NCBI GenBank assembly: GCA_021160245.1
Contig: JAGHCW010000064.1
Coordinates: forward strand, 1 to 37,228
Origin: a bacterium
GTDB taxonomy: Bacteria; B130-G9
DNA length: 37,228 nt
Direction of reading: 5' to 3'
The position numbers and the translations under genes were made by a program. Shown here in pieces: positions 6,743-25,983 of the stretch. Position 1 is the stretch's first letter; every line of letters starts with the position of its first letter. The notes below the pieces were generated by a model, which was not told the DNA's origin, made no database searches, and worked only from the letters and a program-made list of their open reading frames with translations.

Positions 6743-6778
6743 AAAATAAAAAAGGGCTAGCCGAGATGGCTAGCCCTT
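6743..6778 (-). terminator. Rho-independent terminator of the beta-helix cluster
   Basis: On the minus strand a perfect 11-bp stem (AAGGGCTAGCC / GGCTAGCCCTT, 5-base loop) is followed by a T-rich tract. It lies about 80 bases beyond the stop of the beta-helix gene at 6857, so it probably ends that transcript. Confidence 0.9.
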
Positions 6779-6856
6779 CAAAACACTCTCAATTAAGATG
6801 TAACTGATAAGCAGTCGTTCCCACGAGCTTCAGGAACCTCTCACAAGCTCTGGCGA

Positions 6857-8635
6857 TTAGCGTATTCTCGCAATAATCGGATCGAGAAGCATTGAGGGAA
6901 CCTGAGGAACCGTCGTGAAGATGGGACCATGAGCCGTCCATTTGCCGCTCGTATCAATATCAACGAGATAATAGTAGTAGGTTGCGCCCGGCGAAACGTT
7001 CTTGTCGGTGAACGAATACTCTGCGCCCGAGGCGGAAATGCCCTTTGCGCCGATGAAACCGCTTACCTTTTGGCAATCACTAGGAAGATTGTCGCAGCGA
7101 TAGACCATAAAGCCCGCATTGTCTATCTCAGCGCCGGTCTCCCAGCTGACGACGACCTTGTTTCGATGGGCCTCAGCCACAAACGACGCGAGCTCGACAT
7201 AGTTCATGCCGTCCCAATCGAAGTGGTAGCCCAGGTCGATCCGCCATCTATCGTCACTCATCGTGTCGCACCAGAAGTCCTTGTCCTCGGAGCCATCCGC
7301 ATGGACGCTATACTTGGGGTCCTTGCCGAATGTCACAGTGTTGACAAAGTCGCAGTGGGTCTGCCCCCAGTGGTCAGTTGCCGCCGCAATGCCCTTGTCG
7401 ATACAGGGACTATTCTTGCTGAGGAAGTAGAACGTGGAGTTGCACGGCCTCTCGTCATCCGGCTCGCCTTCAAACAGGGGGTCGAAATCGTAGTTGGTGT
7501 TACCGTTTACATATCCGTCTGTGGAACTTGTGACCCAATCAGGATAGGGCGTCCACGGGGCATTCATCTGCACATCCGAATACATAACCTGGATCGTGAC
7601 CTTGTTCCGATTGATGTCGTCAAATGCTGCAGGTCCGTTGAAATAGACGATGTTGTGGATCATTTTCATCCAATACCCGTCCCTATCACAGCCCCAAATG
7701 CCATAGACATCGATTTGCGGATCAGGTGATCCCCAGGTTGGCATCTTGTCATCACAATGGTAGTTATCGGCAACTGTGTTGCCGTTGATGTAGACCTTTG
7801 CGCAACTGCTCTGGATACCCGCGCCTTCGCCAGCCTTGCCGATGCAGTTCTGCCTGATCAAGTTGTTGACAATCTCGCTGTGGTTGTCGTTGCCTGACAG
7901 GTATATCCCGCCGCCATAAGCTGTAGCCTTGTTCCAGAAAATGCAGCAATCCCGGACATAGTAGCCCTCATGGGTTGCAGATTCTGCCGGCCAGGATAGG
8001 TAGAGTCCTCCGCCGCCGCTGTCTGCAGCCTCCGTATCCGAGTTTCCATCCGCAAGATTCTCCCAGATACAGCTGTTCTCGATTACGCCACAAGATTGAT
8101 GCCATGCCATGCCGCCGCCGGAGCCTTTCGCGTGGTTCCCGGTAACCTCGAGCGCGTACATAATGATATCATCAGATGTACTGCTTTTATCCGGACCCCA
8201 CACCAGGATGCCGCCGCCGTGACCCGCATCGGAGCCTGCAACATAAGCTGCAAAGCCATCCGTTATCTTGAAGTTTCTGATCTTGATGTCGCTGCTTTCA
8301 AGTATCTCAATAACCCTATTCTGATTGTCTCCCTTGATCCAAGGGCCATGATAGAGACCACCATAGCCGATAATCTCGATACCGCTCTTGTTGCTAATGG
8401 TAATTGGGAACGTCTCACAAGTCGTGTCATACGTACCGTTGGCAACATGAATGGTATCGGACCCGCTGACGCAGAGAGCAACAGCGGCCTCGATTGATCC
8501 AAGTGGGTCCCCCGAAGATGACCCGCTTCCGCTTCCGCCTACTGCTACGTAGTAGTCCGCCGCGCTGGCATATCCAATCGCGACCAGCATTAGCAGAACT
8601 GACAGAAGCGTTGTAAGCATCTGTTTCCTAAGCAA
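6857..8635 (-). CDS. Secreted right-handed parallel beta-helix protein with C-terminal Fn3-like module
   Basis: The 592-residue product has a Sec signal peptide with basic residues at 3-4, a hydrophobic core and ASA before the likely cut at 25/26. The mature protein opens with DYYVAVGG and a DUF1565-like segment. It then has repeated beta-helix coils with GGG(I/L)(L/Y) turns, seen near 155-250. Residues about 473-575 form an Fn3-like module with a WETGAEIDNAGFMVYR motif and YYYYLVDIDTSG. Pectate-lyase-like helices bind or cleave polysaccharides, but no catalytic residues can be assigned. The start is TTG: AAAGGAGG lies eight bases upstream, and the later ATG would remove the basic signal residues. 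It is a paralogue of the gene at 8947-11274. Confidence 0.85.
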   Translation of the reverse strand: MLRKQMLTTLLSVLLMLVAIGYASAADYYVAVGGSGSGSSSGDPLGSIEAAVALCVSGSDTIHVANGTYDTTCETFPITISNKSGIEIIGYGGLYHGPWIKGDNQNRVIEILESSDIKIRNFKITDGFAAYVAGSDAGHGGGILVWGPDKSSTSDDIIMYALEVTGNHAKGSGGGMAWHQSCGVIENSCIWENLADGNSDTEAADSGGGGLYLSWPAESATHEGYYVRDCCIFWNKATAYGGGIYLSGNDNHSEIVNNLIRQNCIGKAGEGAGIQSSCAKVYINGNTVADNYHCDDKMPTWGSPDPQIDVYGIWGCDRDGYWMKMIHNIVYFNGPAAFDDINRNKVTIQVMYSDVQMNAPWTPYPDWVTSSTDGYVNGNTNYDFDPLFEGEPDDERPCNSTFYFLSKNSPCIDKGIAAATDHWGQTHCDFVNTVTFGKDPKYSVHADGSEDKDFWCDTMSDDRWRIDLGYHFDWDGMNYVELASFVAEAHRNKVVVSWETGAEIDNAGFMVYRCDNLPSDCQKVSGFIGAKGISASGAEYSFTDKNVSPGATYYYYLVDIDTSGKWTAHGPIFTTVPQVPSMLLDPIIARIR

Positions 8636-8685: not shown

Positions 8686-8811
8686 TTAGCAATTTTGAAC
8701 TGAGCCACCAAAGCCCGTGCATGACAGCGAAGGTCCGAGCTGCGATAGAATCTCGCTGCTCCCCAAAGTTACGACTTTGGGCGCCTCATAGGCTGTTTTT
8801 GATGTCTGCAT
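8686..8811 (-). CDS. Small ORF encoding a RiPP-precursor-like peptide
   Basis: A 41-residue frame lies between the two beta-helix genes on the same strand, with AAAGGAGG nine bases before its ATG. Residues 8-17 read YEAPKVVTLG. This matches YxxPx(L/V)xxxG, the leader element bound by PqqD-like RiPP recognition domains (best known in lasso peptide precursors). The C-terminal part is short and rich in Gly, Ser and Cys (GPSLSCTGFGGSVQNC, Cys31 and Cys41), as expected of a core peptide. It is not a standard lasso core, because no Asp or Glu is available for a ring. No modifying enzyme or transporter is adjacent. It lies about 50 bases before the next beta-helix start and probably shares its transcript. 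An in-frame ATG ten codons upstream (8841) is a weaker start. Confidence 0.6.
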   Translation of the reverse strand: MQTSKTAYEAPKVVTLGSSEILSQLGPSLSCTGFGGSVQNC

Positions 8812-8820
8812 GTACCATAT

Positions 8821-8828
8821 CCTCCTTT
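8821..8828 (-). promoter_or_regulatory. Shine-Dalgarno site of the small peptide ORF
   Basis: AAAGGAGG on the minus strand, nine bases before the ATG at 8811. It is one of the strongest ribosome binding sites in the window and the main evidence that the 41-codon ORF is translated. Confidence 0.65.
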
Positions 8829-8946: not shown

Positions 8947-11274
8947 CTAAAGAACCAAGCTGCTATTCATCCGCTCTACAAAAGTATAAGGCCTCGCATT
9001 GACCGGTCCGTGGACTGTCATCTCGCCACTCGTGTCAATATCAACCAAGTAGTAGCTGTAGGTCGCGCCGTTCACAACGCTCGTATCAATAAAGGAGTAG
9101 CTAAACCCGCTGGCCGCCGTGCCCTGAGCCGCAATGATCTTGGAATTGACCTTAAGCACTGCGTCGGAGCCTTCCTTTACTCTGTAAATGTCAAAGCCGG
9201 CGTTGTCAACCTCGGCGCCAGTTGTCCAGCTGAGAAGCACCCTATTGAACTGTCCCTTCGCCTCAAACGAGTCGAGGTCAACGTAAGTTGCGCTCTCCTT
9301 GAGATAGTGGAAGCCCATGTCTATTGTGCCCGCGTCCTCCACCGCATCTGTCCTAGTCGAATAGCCGCTGCCAATCGGATACCAGGATGAAGCAGAACCA
9401 AGGCCCGCATCCACGCAAGGACTCTGAACCGGCTCTCCAGCAGCTGTCTGACTCAGGAAGAAATAGCCACTCGAAGGTCCTGTAACGAAGTAGGGGTCTG
9501 TATTGAGATTGCCAGTTCCAGCCCATCCGCCCTCAATGTCTGAGTGGGTTACATTGACAACCTCGGCGCCGTCCCATAGCTCAATGCTAGTATCATTGTC
9601 CCAGATTATCGAGTTATAGATGTTGACCGTTGTGTCATCGTCGCCCTCAATGTAGAGCCCATAGTCAGCGTGGTCCGCAATCGTCAGGTTCCTGATCGTA
9701 AGAGTGGCCGTAATTCCGCCGCATGCGAAATACACGCCCGTTGTCTGCTCGAACTCCGTGGACCAGCCCTGCTCCGCGAAGACCACGTTGTTAAAGAGCG
9801 TAGCATTCCCCGAAGTCGTAGTGCTTTGGGAATTGATGTAGATGCCATGTCCATCATTGCCGAAAACGGCGTTGTCCCTAACCTCGATGCCGTCAGGCGC
9901 ATTCAGGAACACGCCATCTCCCAAAACAGCCTTGTTGCCGTAAATCTTGTTGTTGGAGAGCTCGCTTCCATTCTTCCCATTTATGACGCATACACCGCCG
10001 CCATTACCACTCGCTACGTTCTGGTATATCCAGTTGATATGCGCAACCGTGAAGTTGTTGGATCCAACCGCCTCTTGAATGCAAACGCCGGCCCCAGCTC
10101 CTGCGCACTCGTTGTAACTTATGTAATTACCGTAAAGCTCCATATTGCTGTTTCCGCTGTAGATACCACCACCGTTTGTGTTCCTTGCCTCGTTCATAAA
10201 CACGTGGTTTTCCCGGATATCCGGCGTACAGCCTACATTAACATATATGCCACCACCACTCGTATTGGCCCGGTTCTCAGCAATCTCGTTGCCATCTGCG
10301 ATGTAAGGGGCGGAGCTGTTAACCATGTAAATGCCGCCGCCAAGCGTCGCGTAGTTGCCTCTGCCAACCTGATGCAGATGCTCGGGCTTCGCACGGACCA
10401 TGTTGTGCAGGATATCGGGACTGGAGTCGTAAAGATAGATGCCACCGCCATTTTCGACAGCGTCATTCTCCAAGATTCGGTTGTCCTCGATCAACCCATT
10501 CGACTCTAGGAAGTAAATGCCACCGCCGTTGCCGCTGTCGTCATTTGGATCGTACTCAGCATCACAGTCCTGAATCAGATTATCGATAATCTCAACTTCG
10601 GATTGCTTGCAATAGATTCCGCCTCCGAGGTCCGCTTGGTTATCCTGGATGGTACATCCGGAAACCTTTAAGTCTGCCTCCAGTGCAAAAATTGCGCCTC
10701 CGCCCTGGAGGCACTCGCCACCCTCAAAGACACAGTCGGTGATGTGGACGTCGGAGTAATTGACAAAGACACCGGCGCCGTCCTCAGTGCTGTAGCCATT
10801 GCGAATGGTAAGAGTCGAGATCGTGACGCCATTTATATAGATGTTAGGCGCATTGACCTCCAATATGCCGAGCTGGTCAAGGGGATCCGTATGATCGACA
10901 TTCCATTCATTGTAGTCAATGATCGTCGTGTCCTTGTCCATGCCCACAAGATGCACATAGTGGAGTATCTTACTCGCTGATTGCCACCATGCAATCGGAA
11001 ACTCCTCGTTATCCGAGCCTCCCGACGTGTAGGTATAAGTCCCAGGGAATACGTTGATAATGGTGGGATTAGCCGCCGTCGCTGTATTCGGGACTGTTGC
11101 CATCGCATAAGTGATCGTCCGCCAGGGATCGGCGTATGTCCCCGGATTTGCATTGTCACCCGACACTGAGACATAATAGTCGTCAGCGTGGGCAAACATG
11201 GTCGCTAGAGAGACGATCAACGTGCACAACACGAAGACCGAAGTCAGCAGAAACTGCCTATCTACTCTATGCAT
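8947..11274 (-). CDS. Large secreted right-handed parallel beta-helix protein with C-terminal Fn3-like module
   Basis: The 775-residue product starts with a Sec signal peptide (hydrophobic 8-27, AHA before the cut at 30/31). The mature start DDYYVSVSG is followed by many beta-helix coils with recurrent GGGIY turns (about 165-560) and a C-terminal Fn3-like module from about 661 (WTTGAEVDNAGFDIYR, then YSYYLVDIDTSGEM). Architecture and both termini match the 592-residue paralogue downstream, so the pair arose by duplication. GGAGG sits four bases before the ATG. A cell-surface or secreted polysaccharide-binding role is possible, but no catalytic residues can be named. Two promoters in the long upstream gap point toward it. 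Confidence 0.86.
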   Translation of the reverse strand: MHRVDRQFLLTSVFVLCTLIVSLATMFAHADDYYVSVSGDNANPGTYADPWRTITYAMATVPNTATAANPTIINVFPGTYTYTSGGSDNEEFPIAWWQSASKILHYVHLVGMDKDTTIIDYNEWNVDHTDPLDQLGILEVNAPNIYINGVTISTLTIRNGYSTEDGAGVFVNYSDVHITDCVFEGGECLQGGGAIFALEADLKVSGCTIQDNQADLGGGIYCKQSEVEIIDNLIQDCDAEYDPNDDSGNGGGIYFLESNGLIEDNRILENDAVENGGGIYLYDSSPDILHNMVRAKPEHLHQVGRGNYATLGGGIYMVNSSAPYIADGNEIAENRANTSGGGIYVNVGCTPDIRENHVFMNEARNTNGGGIYSGNSNMELYGNYISYNECAGAGAGVCIQEAVGSNNFTVAHINWIYQNVASGNGGGVCVINGKNGSELSNNKIYGNKAVLGDGVFLNAPDGIEVRDNAVFGNDGHGIYINSQSTTTSGNATLFNNVVFAEQGWSTEFEQTTGVYFACGGITATLTIRNLTIADHADYGLYIEGDDDTTVNIYNSIIWDNDTSIELWDGAEVVNVTHSDIEGGWAGTGNLNTDPYFVTGPSSGYFFLSQTAAGEPVQSPCVDAGLGSASSWYPIGSGYSTRTDAVEDAGTIDMGFHYLKESATYVDLDSFEAKGQFNRVLLSWTTGAEVDNAGFDIYRVKEGSDAVLKVNSKIIAAQGTAASGFSYSFIDTSVVNGATYSYYLVDIDTSGEMTVHGPVNARPYTFVERMNSSLVL

Positions 11275-11762: not shown

Positions 11763-11791
11763 ACTATAACTCCTTTCTCCAAAAGTGTCAA
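11763..11791 (-). promoter_or_regulatory. Sigma70-type promoter (inner)
   Basis: On the minus strand a perfect TTGACA (11786-11791) is separated by exactly 17 bases from TATAGT (11763-11768). Transcription would start near 11757 and run toward the beta-helix gene at 11274. Confidence 0.6.
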
Positions 11792-24664: not shown

Positions 24665-25606
24665 CTAGGAGACCGCTAGCTTATTATCGGTCCTCTTGAC
24701 CACAATGGGGTTGTGGACCAAATAGCACGCTCCAGAGCTTAGACAGCTCTTGCAGTAAGGCTGGTATGTCTTGAGCTTGCGAATCTCATCCAGCGAGAGG
24801 TCGAAGAGGTTACCCAAACCATACTTCTCAACATCAGTGCCCACAATGCAGCAGGGCAGGAGGTTGTAGTTCTCGTCCAGGACTAGAATATCATGCTGTG
24901 GGCAATGATAATCCGGGGGCATTTGGGCGACAAGTTCCTTTACATGAGATAAGACCAACTCCATAGAAGCCCTTTCCTGCTCCGCTCGAGGCATATTGCC
25001 GGACAAATAGTTTATGCAGTCGTCAAAATCGGCGAGATACGCATAGTACGCCAGCAGATTGATGCCGAGCTCTGATGCGAATTCGCACGCCGGCTCCAGT
25101 TCGTCCCGATTGAACTGGTATATGTGATAGGCGATCTGAGCCTCGCCATGAAATCCACATTCCCTCAAATTACTGATAATGCGTGGGATATTGCCCTTGA
25201 TAGCGTCAAAATCGAATCCATGGATTTTGTCATAAGACGACTGGCTGAAGCCCGGCATTGAGAACCTGAAAAGCTTCAATCCATCCATGAGATCGCTCCC
25301 CTCAAACTCAACGAGCCTCGAGGCATTTGTGCTTAGCCCAAAACTCAGATGCGACTCGTGCAGGAAACGGACAATGTCCTTGATTGAGGGGTTGAGAAAT
25401 GGCTCTCCCCAATTATGCAGGATGATCAAAGTGTCCTGGCCGATTATTCCCCGCTTCAGCATATATTCGATGGCCCGCGCAAAGTCGCCAGGGCGGATAA
25501 AACCACCACTGCTCGAGCTCTTGCGCCGATTCCTGATGCCCGTGTAACACCAGGGGCACTTGCCATTACAAATCCCTGAAATCTCGAGATATATCTTCTT
25601 GAACAT
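24665..25606 (-). CDS. Radical SAM protein with SPASM-like C-terminal cluster
   Basis: From the ATG at 25606 the product is 313 residues. It starts with MFKKIYLEISGICNGKCPWC, whose three cysteines (13, 17, 20) form the CxxxCxxC site for the 4Fe-4S cluster that cleaves S-adenosylmethionine. Motifs for SAM binding (NWGEPFLNP) and beta strands of the partial TIM barrel follow. The C-terminal cysteines (HCPQHD, LLPCC, YCKSC and SSGAC) look like a SPASM domain, often found in enzymes that modify peptides or proteins. The frame is open to 25714, but the cluster motif usually lies close to the N-terminus. It converges with fbaB and has no partner next to it. Confidence 0.85.
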   Translation of the reverse strand: MFKKIYLEISGICNGKCPWCYTGIRNRRKSSSSGGFIRPGDFARAIEYMLKRGIIGQDTLIILHNWGEPFLNPSIKDIVRFLHESHLSFGLSTNASRLVEFEGSDLMDGLKLFRFSMPGFSQSSYDKIHGFDFDAIKGNIPRIISNLRECGFHGEAQIAYHIYQFNRDELEPACEFASELGINLLAYYAYLADFDDCINYLSGNMPRAEQERASMELVLSHVKELVAQMPPDYHCPQHDILVLDENYNLLPCCIVGTDVEKYGLGNLFDLSLDEIRKLKTYQPYCKSCLSSGACYLVHNPIVVKRTDNKLAVS

Positions 25607-25983
25607 CTCTATATGCTCTCCCATCTGGCCCGGCAATCCTCCTAGTCCATGTTGACTCGGTGAGGGGAACATACTAGACTTGGCAAGTATCTCCAAGCGT
25701 GGGATGCAGCCCAAGCAAAAACTGATTTCCGCGCTAAAAAGCAGGCGTGGGGTTTTGTCGAGTGATTAGAATCACTACTAGTGTGAGCCATCGGCGGCGC
25801 GACTCGACTTGGCTGCAGATGTCGAATGAATCTGGGCGAGGTTAGTAGCGCAGACCCAGATACATCACGCGCCGCTCTTTTGGAATCCTAAGAGCTATGT
25901 TAAGCTGCCTCGCGAAAGCTTCTATGGAGCATACAATTTAGCGCGTGTCTTGCTGAATGAATAAGATCGCAATGGGGTAGCCT
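25607..25983. other. Divergent intergenic region with operator-like palindromes
   Basis: The gap separates the radical SAM gene (minus) from the 1700-residue protein gene (plus). AGTGATT and AATCACT (25761-25776) form a 7+2+7 palindrome suited to a dimeric regulator. ATCTGGG and CCCAGAT (25830-25836 and 25855-25861) form a stem with an 18-base loop. No convincing promoter or ORF is seen. Confidence 0.45.

Follow-up and report, generated by a model that had tools for sequence, protein, structure and literature searches.

A RiPP-like precursor gene beside secreted-protein genes in Candidatus Coatesbacteria and its candidate PqqD/radical SAM cassette

The peptide gene and its transcription unit

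The window, a stretch of 37,228 nucleotides from a Candidatus Coatesbacteria genome, carries on its minus strand a short open reading frame with the product MQTSKTAYEAPKVVTLGSSEILSQLGPSLSCTGFGGSVQNC, in which Tyr8 and Gly26 are 18 residues apart (Table 1). A preliminary description had reported this frame with its ribosome binding site and had placed it amid two same-strand genes for secreted beta-helix proteins in an apparent single transcript. Both points were confirmed: the peptide gene lies 135 nt past the upstream beta-helix gene and 50 nt ahead of the downstream one, and the sole strong terminator-like hairpin of the unit is found 3' of the second beta-helix gene. The peptide matched no family in NCBIfam at E values up to 10 and none in Pfam at E values up to 0.01.

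Table 1. Features of the peptide gene and its surroundings (window coordinates)
Feature	Position	Strand	Remark
RiPP-like precursor gene, 41 codons (41 aa)	8686..8811	-	Paralogs, family copies, purifying selection
Ribosome binding site AAAGGAGG	8821..8828	-	9 nt ahead of ATG, read directly
Putative leader, residues 1-25, Y8-x2-P11-x-V13-x-T15	8737..8811	-	Leader/core boundary inferred
Putative core GPSLSCTGFGGSVQNC, two Cys	8689..8736	-	From comparison of copies
Secreted beta-helix protein, 775 aa	8947..11274	-	Upstream, same apparent transcript; Fn3-like domain 9001-9285
Secreted beta-helix protein, 592 aa, C-terminal Arg	6857..8635	-	Downstream; Fn3-like domain 6920-7201
Terminator-like hairpin, 12-pair stem and T run	6751..6779	-	Closes the unit; consensus match only
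Sigma-70-like promoter-like site, 11/12 matches	11763..11791	-	About 490 nt upstream of the first ORF; consensus match only

A conserved peptide family beside secreted-protein genes

Four paralogs of the window peptide, with 62-74% identity, are encoded in the same genome, and the family is present in 4/4 Coatesbacteria genomes examined, with 5, 2, 7 and 15 copies (29 in total, of which the 27 full-length ones were used for the alignment figures). The distance from Tyr to Gly is 18 residues in 27/27 full-length copies, and the core GPSLSCTGFGG is near-invariant among them, changing only between phyla, contrary to the variable core that the preliminary description had expected; Ser3 of the core is kept in 26/27 copies. 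The conserved Cys is found in 25/27 Coatesbacteria copies, each of the three genomes from other phyla described below has it too, and a terminal Cys, preceded by a short variable stretch, is present in nearly all copies. The first Cys is replaced by Y or H in two copies and the terminal Cys is absent in one, implying that a fixed two-Cys chemistry is not universal. Judged by its codons, the family is under purifying selection, with 5.7 synonymous versus 0.92 nonsynonymous differences per pair over the 11 core codons and a median dN/dS of 0.21 over the stretch from Tyr to Gly-Gly.

By the full motif Y-x2-P-x-[VI]-x12-G-x4-C, the family is far above chance, with 27 occurrences seen and 0.05 expected in 408 kb; YxxPx[VIL] taken alone, with 240 seen and 170 expected in the same 408 kb, is close to chance and constitutes weak evidence. 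The segment YEAPKVVTLG had been read in the preliminary description as a leader motif for PqqD-like domains. That reading of the leader holds, but the Gly that closes the segment is not conserved, the position being occupied by D in 15/27 copies and by G in 7/27. Two copies (L098:4192-4257 and L089:576-629) have lost the leader at the 5' side and are apparently decaying copies or frameshifts. Two more genomes, G167 and G260, gave weak peptide matches (E 0.004-0.008), which were set aside as no more than chance would yield among 386 genomes.

Counted in these cassette-bearing genomes (genomes that lack the system may often have the Fn3-like domain as well), a same-strand gene for an Fn3-domain protein adjoins 27/29 peptide copies across the four Coatesbacteria genomes, and the two unpaired copies are the truncated ones, which lie near similar genes. 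In 19/29 copies the peptide starts 26-190 nt past an Fn3 domain, and a peptide lies directly downstream of only 21/54 copies of the Fn3-like domain, indicating that many partners have no peptide of their own. The partners have the C-terminal Fn3-like domain in common and differ in their N-terminal parts (beta-helix, C25 protease or papain-type protease). The shared domain is predicted to adopt a fibronectin type III fold (mean pLDDT 84), and its best PDB matches are FnIII domains. An Arg or Lys ends 23/31 partners versus 25/136 other long ORFs (Fisher p = 5e-9, with paralogs being non-independent).

The order partner-peptide-partner seen in the window is shared by the other three Coatesbacteria genomes. 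The preliminary description had asked whether the peptide recurs next to beta-helix genes, and it does so, along with genes for other secreted proteins. It had also regarded lack of peptide conservation or of codon constraint as speaking against a precursor gene; the opposite was found, as the gene order recurs and synonymous changes dominate. The pairing with secreted proteins suggests that the peptide product acts together with its neighbours. The window gene is tiny and easily missed, and belongs to a family that has been copied many times, nearly always adjoining genes for exported proteins.

Two further observations concern the local arrangement. In one 17 kb locus (L092, G003:C209), six peptide copies alternate with genes for Fn3-domain secreted proteins on both strands, as if the module grows by local duplication. 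At partner 3' ends in L008, L084, L094 and L088, a recurring tail of the type 'ELPTAN(CQLPTAN)' arises from short repeated DNA just ahead of the peptide gene.

Candidate modifying enzymes and operons in other phyla

The preliminary description had named the radical SAM protein of the window (24665-25714) as the candidate modifying enzyme. This candidate was rejected: it has no RRE, reaches 28.8 bits against a Pfam cut-off of 29.5 and is not tied to the peptide family. It is a small protein, weakly like tungsten-enzyme maturases (TIGR04317, far below cut-off), with no visible partner. A PqqD-like or radical SAM gene elsewhere in the genome, also proposed for a search, was found in the form of a single-copy cassette with both on another contig (G000:C17), encoding a PqqD protein (96 aa), a PqqD-radical SAM/SPASM fusion (462 aa), an HprK-like kinase (402 aa), a PorU-like C25 protease (1075 aa) and an S24/S26 peptidase (204 aa). 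The two PqqD domains of the cassette are the only ones genome-wide above the PF05402 (PqqD family) cut-off, and the radical SAM protein exceeds the cut-offs of PF04055 and PF13186 (SPASM), with the Cys residues of CxxxCxxC invariant. The C25 protease family includes PorU, the sortase of type IX secretion.

One ortholog of the cassette radical SAM protein is found per genome in 4/4 Coatesbacteria genomes (53-56% identity), and its neighbours are conserved over as much of the surroundings as the contigs cover. All four genomes have both peptide and cassette, so that they offer no loss event inside the phylum for comparison. The peptide motif is absent from the Coatesbacteria cassette loci, where peptides and cassette are unlinked, and no exporter lies within the cassette. 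The C17 cassette is the best candidate for modifying the peptide. In G000 and G003 a glycosyltransferase gene (L044:8569-9552; L058:3219-3731) is oriented divergently to the cassette, and none was seen there in G002; the G000 protein has weak MftF-like similarity.

The cassette radical SAM protein was found in 7/386 genomes, namely the four Coatesbacteria and three others (G139, G189 and G044), which are classed with the window genome only at the taxonomic rank of domain and need not represent three phyla, the list for the phylum of G139 excluding G044 and G189. In 3/3 of these genomes a matching peptide is encoded in the same operon as the radical SAM protein; that of G139 came from a profile search, whereas in G189 and G044 it was read off the locus surrounding the radical SAM gene. 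The G139 operon comprises PqqD, the peptide KYEAPKVITYHEDDILEELGPAQACTSPCPAP, a secreted Fn3-domain protein, the radical SAM protein and the start of an HprK-like gene, and its partner has a T9SS type A sorting domain over cut-off. In G044, the operon encodes PqqD, the peptide KYVQPEVITYTNDDVIKHLGPAQACSTTPCTVSPSGSGF, a secreted protein, the radical SAM protein, an HprK-like kinase, a PorU-like protease (29% identity over 1001 columns) and an S24-like peptidase, and in G189 the peptide YIPPEVITYSSDEILEELGTVQACNSYDSSCGVLYNMQQDNAGF, the radical SAM protein, an HprK-like kinase and a secreted protein. The three peptides have in common Y-x2-P-x-V-x-T-x10-G-x4-C and two Cys, with Ala or Val at core position 3 versus Ser3 in Coatesbacteria, and the partners of the three operons (G139, G189, G044) carry the same Fn3-like domain (E 2e-30, 3e-21 and 6e-18).

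The presence of a matching peptide and a secreted Fn3-domain protein in the radical SAM operon of all three genomes points to a two-cysteine RiPP-like system that depends on an RRE, uses a radical SAM enzyme and is tied to secreted proteins. Together with the conserved family, these operons uphold the RiPP-like precursor proposed in the preliminary description. The peptide is absent from three relatives within the phylum of G139, and the radical SAM protein from family mates of G044 and G189, indicating that the system is patchy.

Two other relatives of the radical SAM protein (G139:C62 and G173:C26) were rejected as systems of this family, since their neighbourhoods contain neither such a peptide nor a kinase or PorU-like gene. 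The former (L150:2019-6010), a second, distant relative in that genome, adjoins nucleotidyltransferase-like and ATP-grasp-like genes, as read from their translations, has no YxxP peptide beside it and probably belongs to a different peptide system. The latter (L151:7456-9942) has 828 aa and combines a radical SAM part that matches the cassette family with a long extra region.

Proposed mechanism, alternatives and relation to known systems

We consider it probable (about 0.77) that the window ORF is the precursor of an RRE-dependent, radical SAM RiPP-like system, whose leader would be bound by the PqqD domains of the cassette and whose product would work with the secreted Fn3-domain partners. 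The sequences themselves establish the gene, the conservation of its codons, its pairing with these neighbours and, in the three genomes of other phyla, an operon that it shares with the enzymes. Where a PqqD-like protein is encoded next to modifying enzymes, an RRE-dependent RiPP is strongly indicated (PMC7470986). Some lasso precursors have YxxPxL at -17 to -12 ahead of the core Gly, and HPr-kinase homologs add phosphate to the precursor, with Ser3 as the target in one case (PMC10368454, PMC8498205). The leader geometry here is the same but longer by one residue, and from these precedents we infer leader binding, radical modification, possible phosphorylation and processing outside the cell as follows. 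The leader Y-x2-P-x-V-x-T would be bound by the PqqD domains of the cassette on the other contig. The core, whose first residue is the invariant Gly, would be modified by the radical SAM/SPASM protein, with the conserved Cys as the most likely site and a thioether-type cross-link as our guess, and the HprK-like kinase may phosphorylate it. Once the peptide is exported, its leader could be removed, or the product joined to the partner, by the PorU-like C25 protease, possibly together with the S24/S26 peptidase. The mature peptide would then work with, or on, the secreted Fn3-domain proteins encoded beside it, and we would guess that it serves as an extracellular accessory or anchor of these proteins.

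A more specific version, which we regard as unlikely, takes the modified peptide for a ribosomally made tag rather than a free natural product. The PorU-like protease would join it to the C-terminal region of the Fn3-domain partners, whose last residue is Arg or Lys in most cases, and the tag would mark these proteins at the cell surface or anchor them there. Type IX secretion uses lipopolysaccharide as anchor, and if the tag reading were true, the peptide would stand in its place.

An independent extracellular RiPP, either a signal or an antimicrobial, with secreted-protein neighbours that are incidental or only co-regulated, would be the standard outcome for many RiPPs and would accommodate a core that differs between phyla. 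It is made unlikely by the number of near-identical cores (as many as 15 in one genome), most of them next to different secreted proteins, by the same partner type in other phyla and by the lack of an immunity or transporter gene in the operons read. The peptide could also give rise to a small redox cofactor, in the way that PqqA yields PQQ and MftA mycofactocin, considering that PqqD and a SPASM radical SAM protein are present, that among NCBIfam families the Coatesbacteria enzyme matches the mycofactocin maturase best (E 9e-39, below cut-off) and that the core hardly varies within Coatesbacteria; this is quite improbable, as the many copies per genome adjoin beta-helix and protease genes rather than oxidoreductases, the core differs between phyla and no PQQ or mycofactocin family cut-off is reached. 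A regulatory leader or arrest peptide acting on translation of the next gene, to which the short frame, conserved C-terminus and tight coupling to neighbouring genes would conform, is very improbable given that the peptide mostly lies downstream of its partner, is often last in the unit and in other phyla is located within the PqqD/radical SAM operon. Finally, the YxxPx[LV] leader, the Gly1-like core start and the HprK-like kinases known from lasso clusters (PMC8498205, PMC10368454) recall a lasso peptide of unusual type, which is scarcely credible and which the preliminary description had rightly discounted, as no aligned copy has Asp or Glu at inferred core positions 7-9, neither a B2 leader peptidase nor an Asn-synthase-like cyclase occurs in any operon read, and the only B2-type match genome-wide (PF13471, over cut-off) is partial, distant and in a long frame.

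The precursor of an RRE-dependent RiPP-like system remains our preferred reading, and the peptide system is apparently undescribed so far; we found no description in the literature of this combination of components. With a defined gene set and the compact G044 operon, the role of such a peptide for an exported protein becomes testable, and short ORFs in uncultured phyla can be an operon's most informative genes.

Among known systems, RRE-dependent radical SAM RiPPs (sactipeptides and ranthipeptides) likewise have PqqD/RRE domains both free and fused to radical SAM/SPASM, and a small precursor with a leader and a Cys-bearing core. Their features recur here in the PqqD-like RRE domain, the SPASM radical SAM protein with CxxxCxxC and, in G139, G189 and G044, a precursor encoded with the enzymes. 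In contrast to them, no NCBIfam maturase family is reached at cut-off, an HprK-like kinase and a PorU-like C25 protease are added, and the precursor genes lie scattered next to genes for secreted proteins. Lasso peptides with discrete B1 and HPr-kinase tailoring (paeninodin, BsfA type) resemble the system in the YxxPxL leader up to the core Gly, the PqqD-like B1 and the HprK-like kinase. The leader Tyr is at -17 in BsfA and at -18 in Coatesbacteria peptides, and BsfK phosphorylates Ser3 (PMC10368454), the residue that most Coatesbacteria cores keep and other phyla replace; here, however, there is no ring acid and no cyclase, and a radical SAM enzyme instead. The SynChlorMet cassette has a PqqD and a radical SAM/SPASM protein of related type, to which the matches are weak: PqqD reaches 31-38 of 100 bits and the radical SAM protein 112-121 of 400 bits for ScmE, far short of the NCBIfam cut-offs of ScmD, ScmE and ScmF, and the peptide matches no family.

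As for type IX secretion, the PorU-like protein, at 257 of 420 bits, is below the T9SS sortase cut-off, and a search for SprA gave no match, nor did it in any control genome. The likeness to its cargo and to PorU lies in the C-terminal Fn3-like domain of the partners, the T9SS type A sorting domain in G139 and the PorU-like C25 protease in the cassette. The system would join two normally separate fields, RiPP biosynthesis and surface-protein sorting, and in the compact operon of G044 precursor, radical SAM protein, kinase, sortase-like protease and secreted partner are found together.
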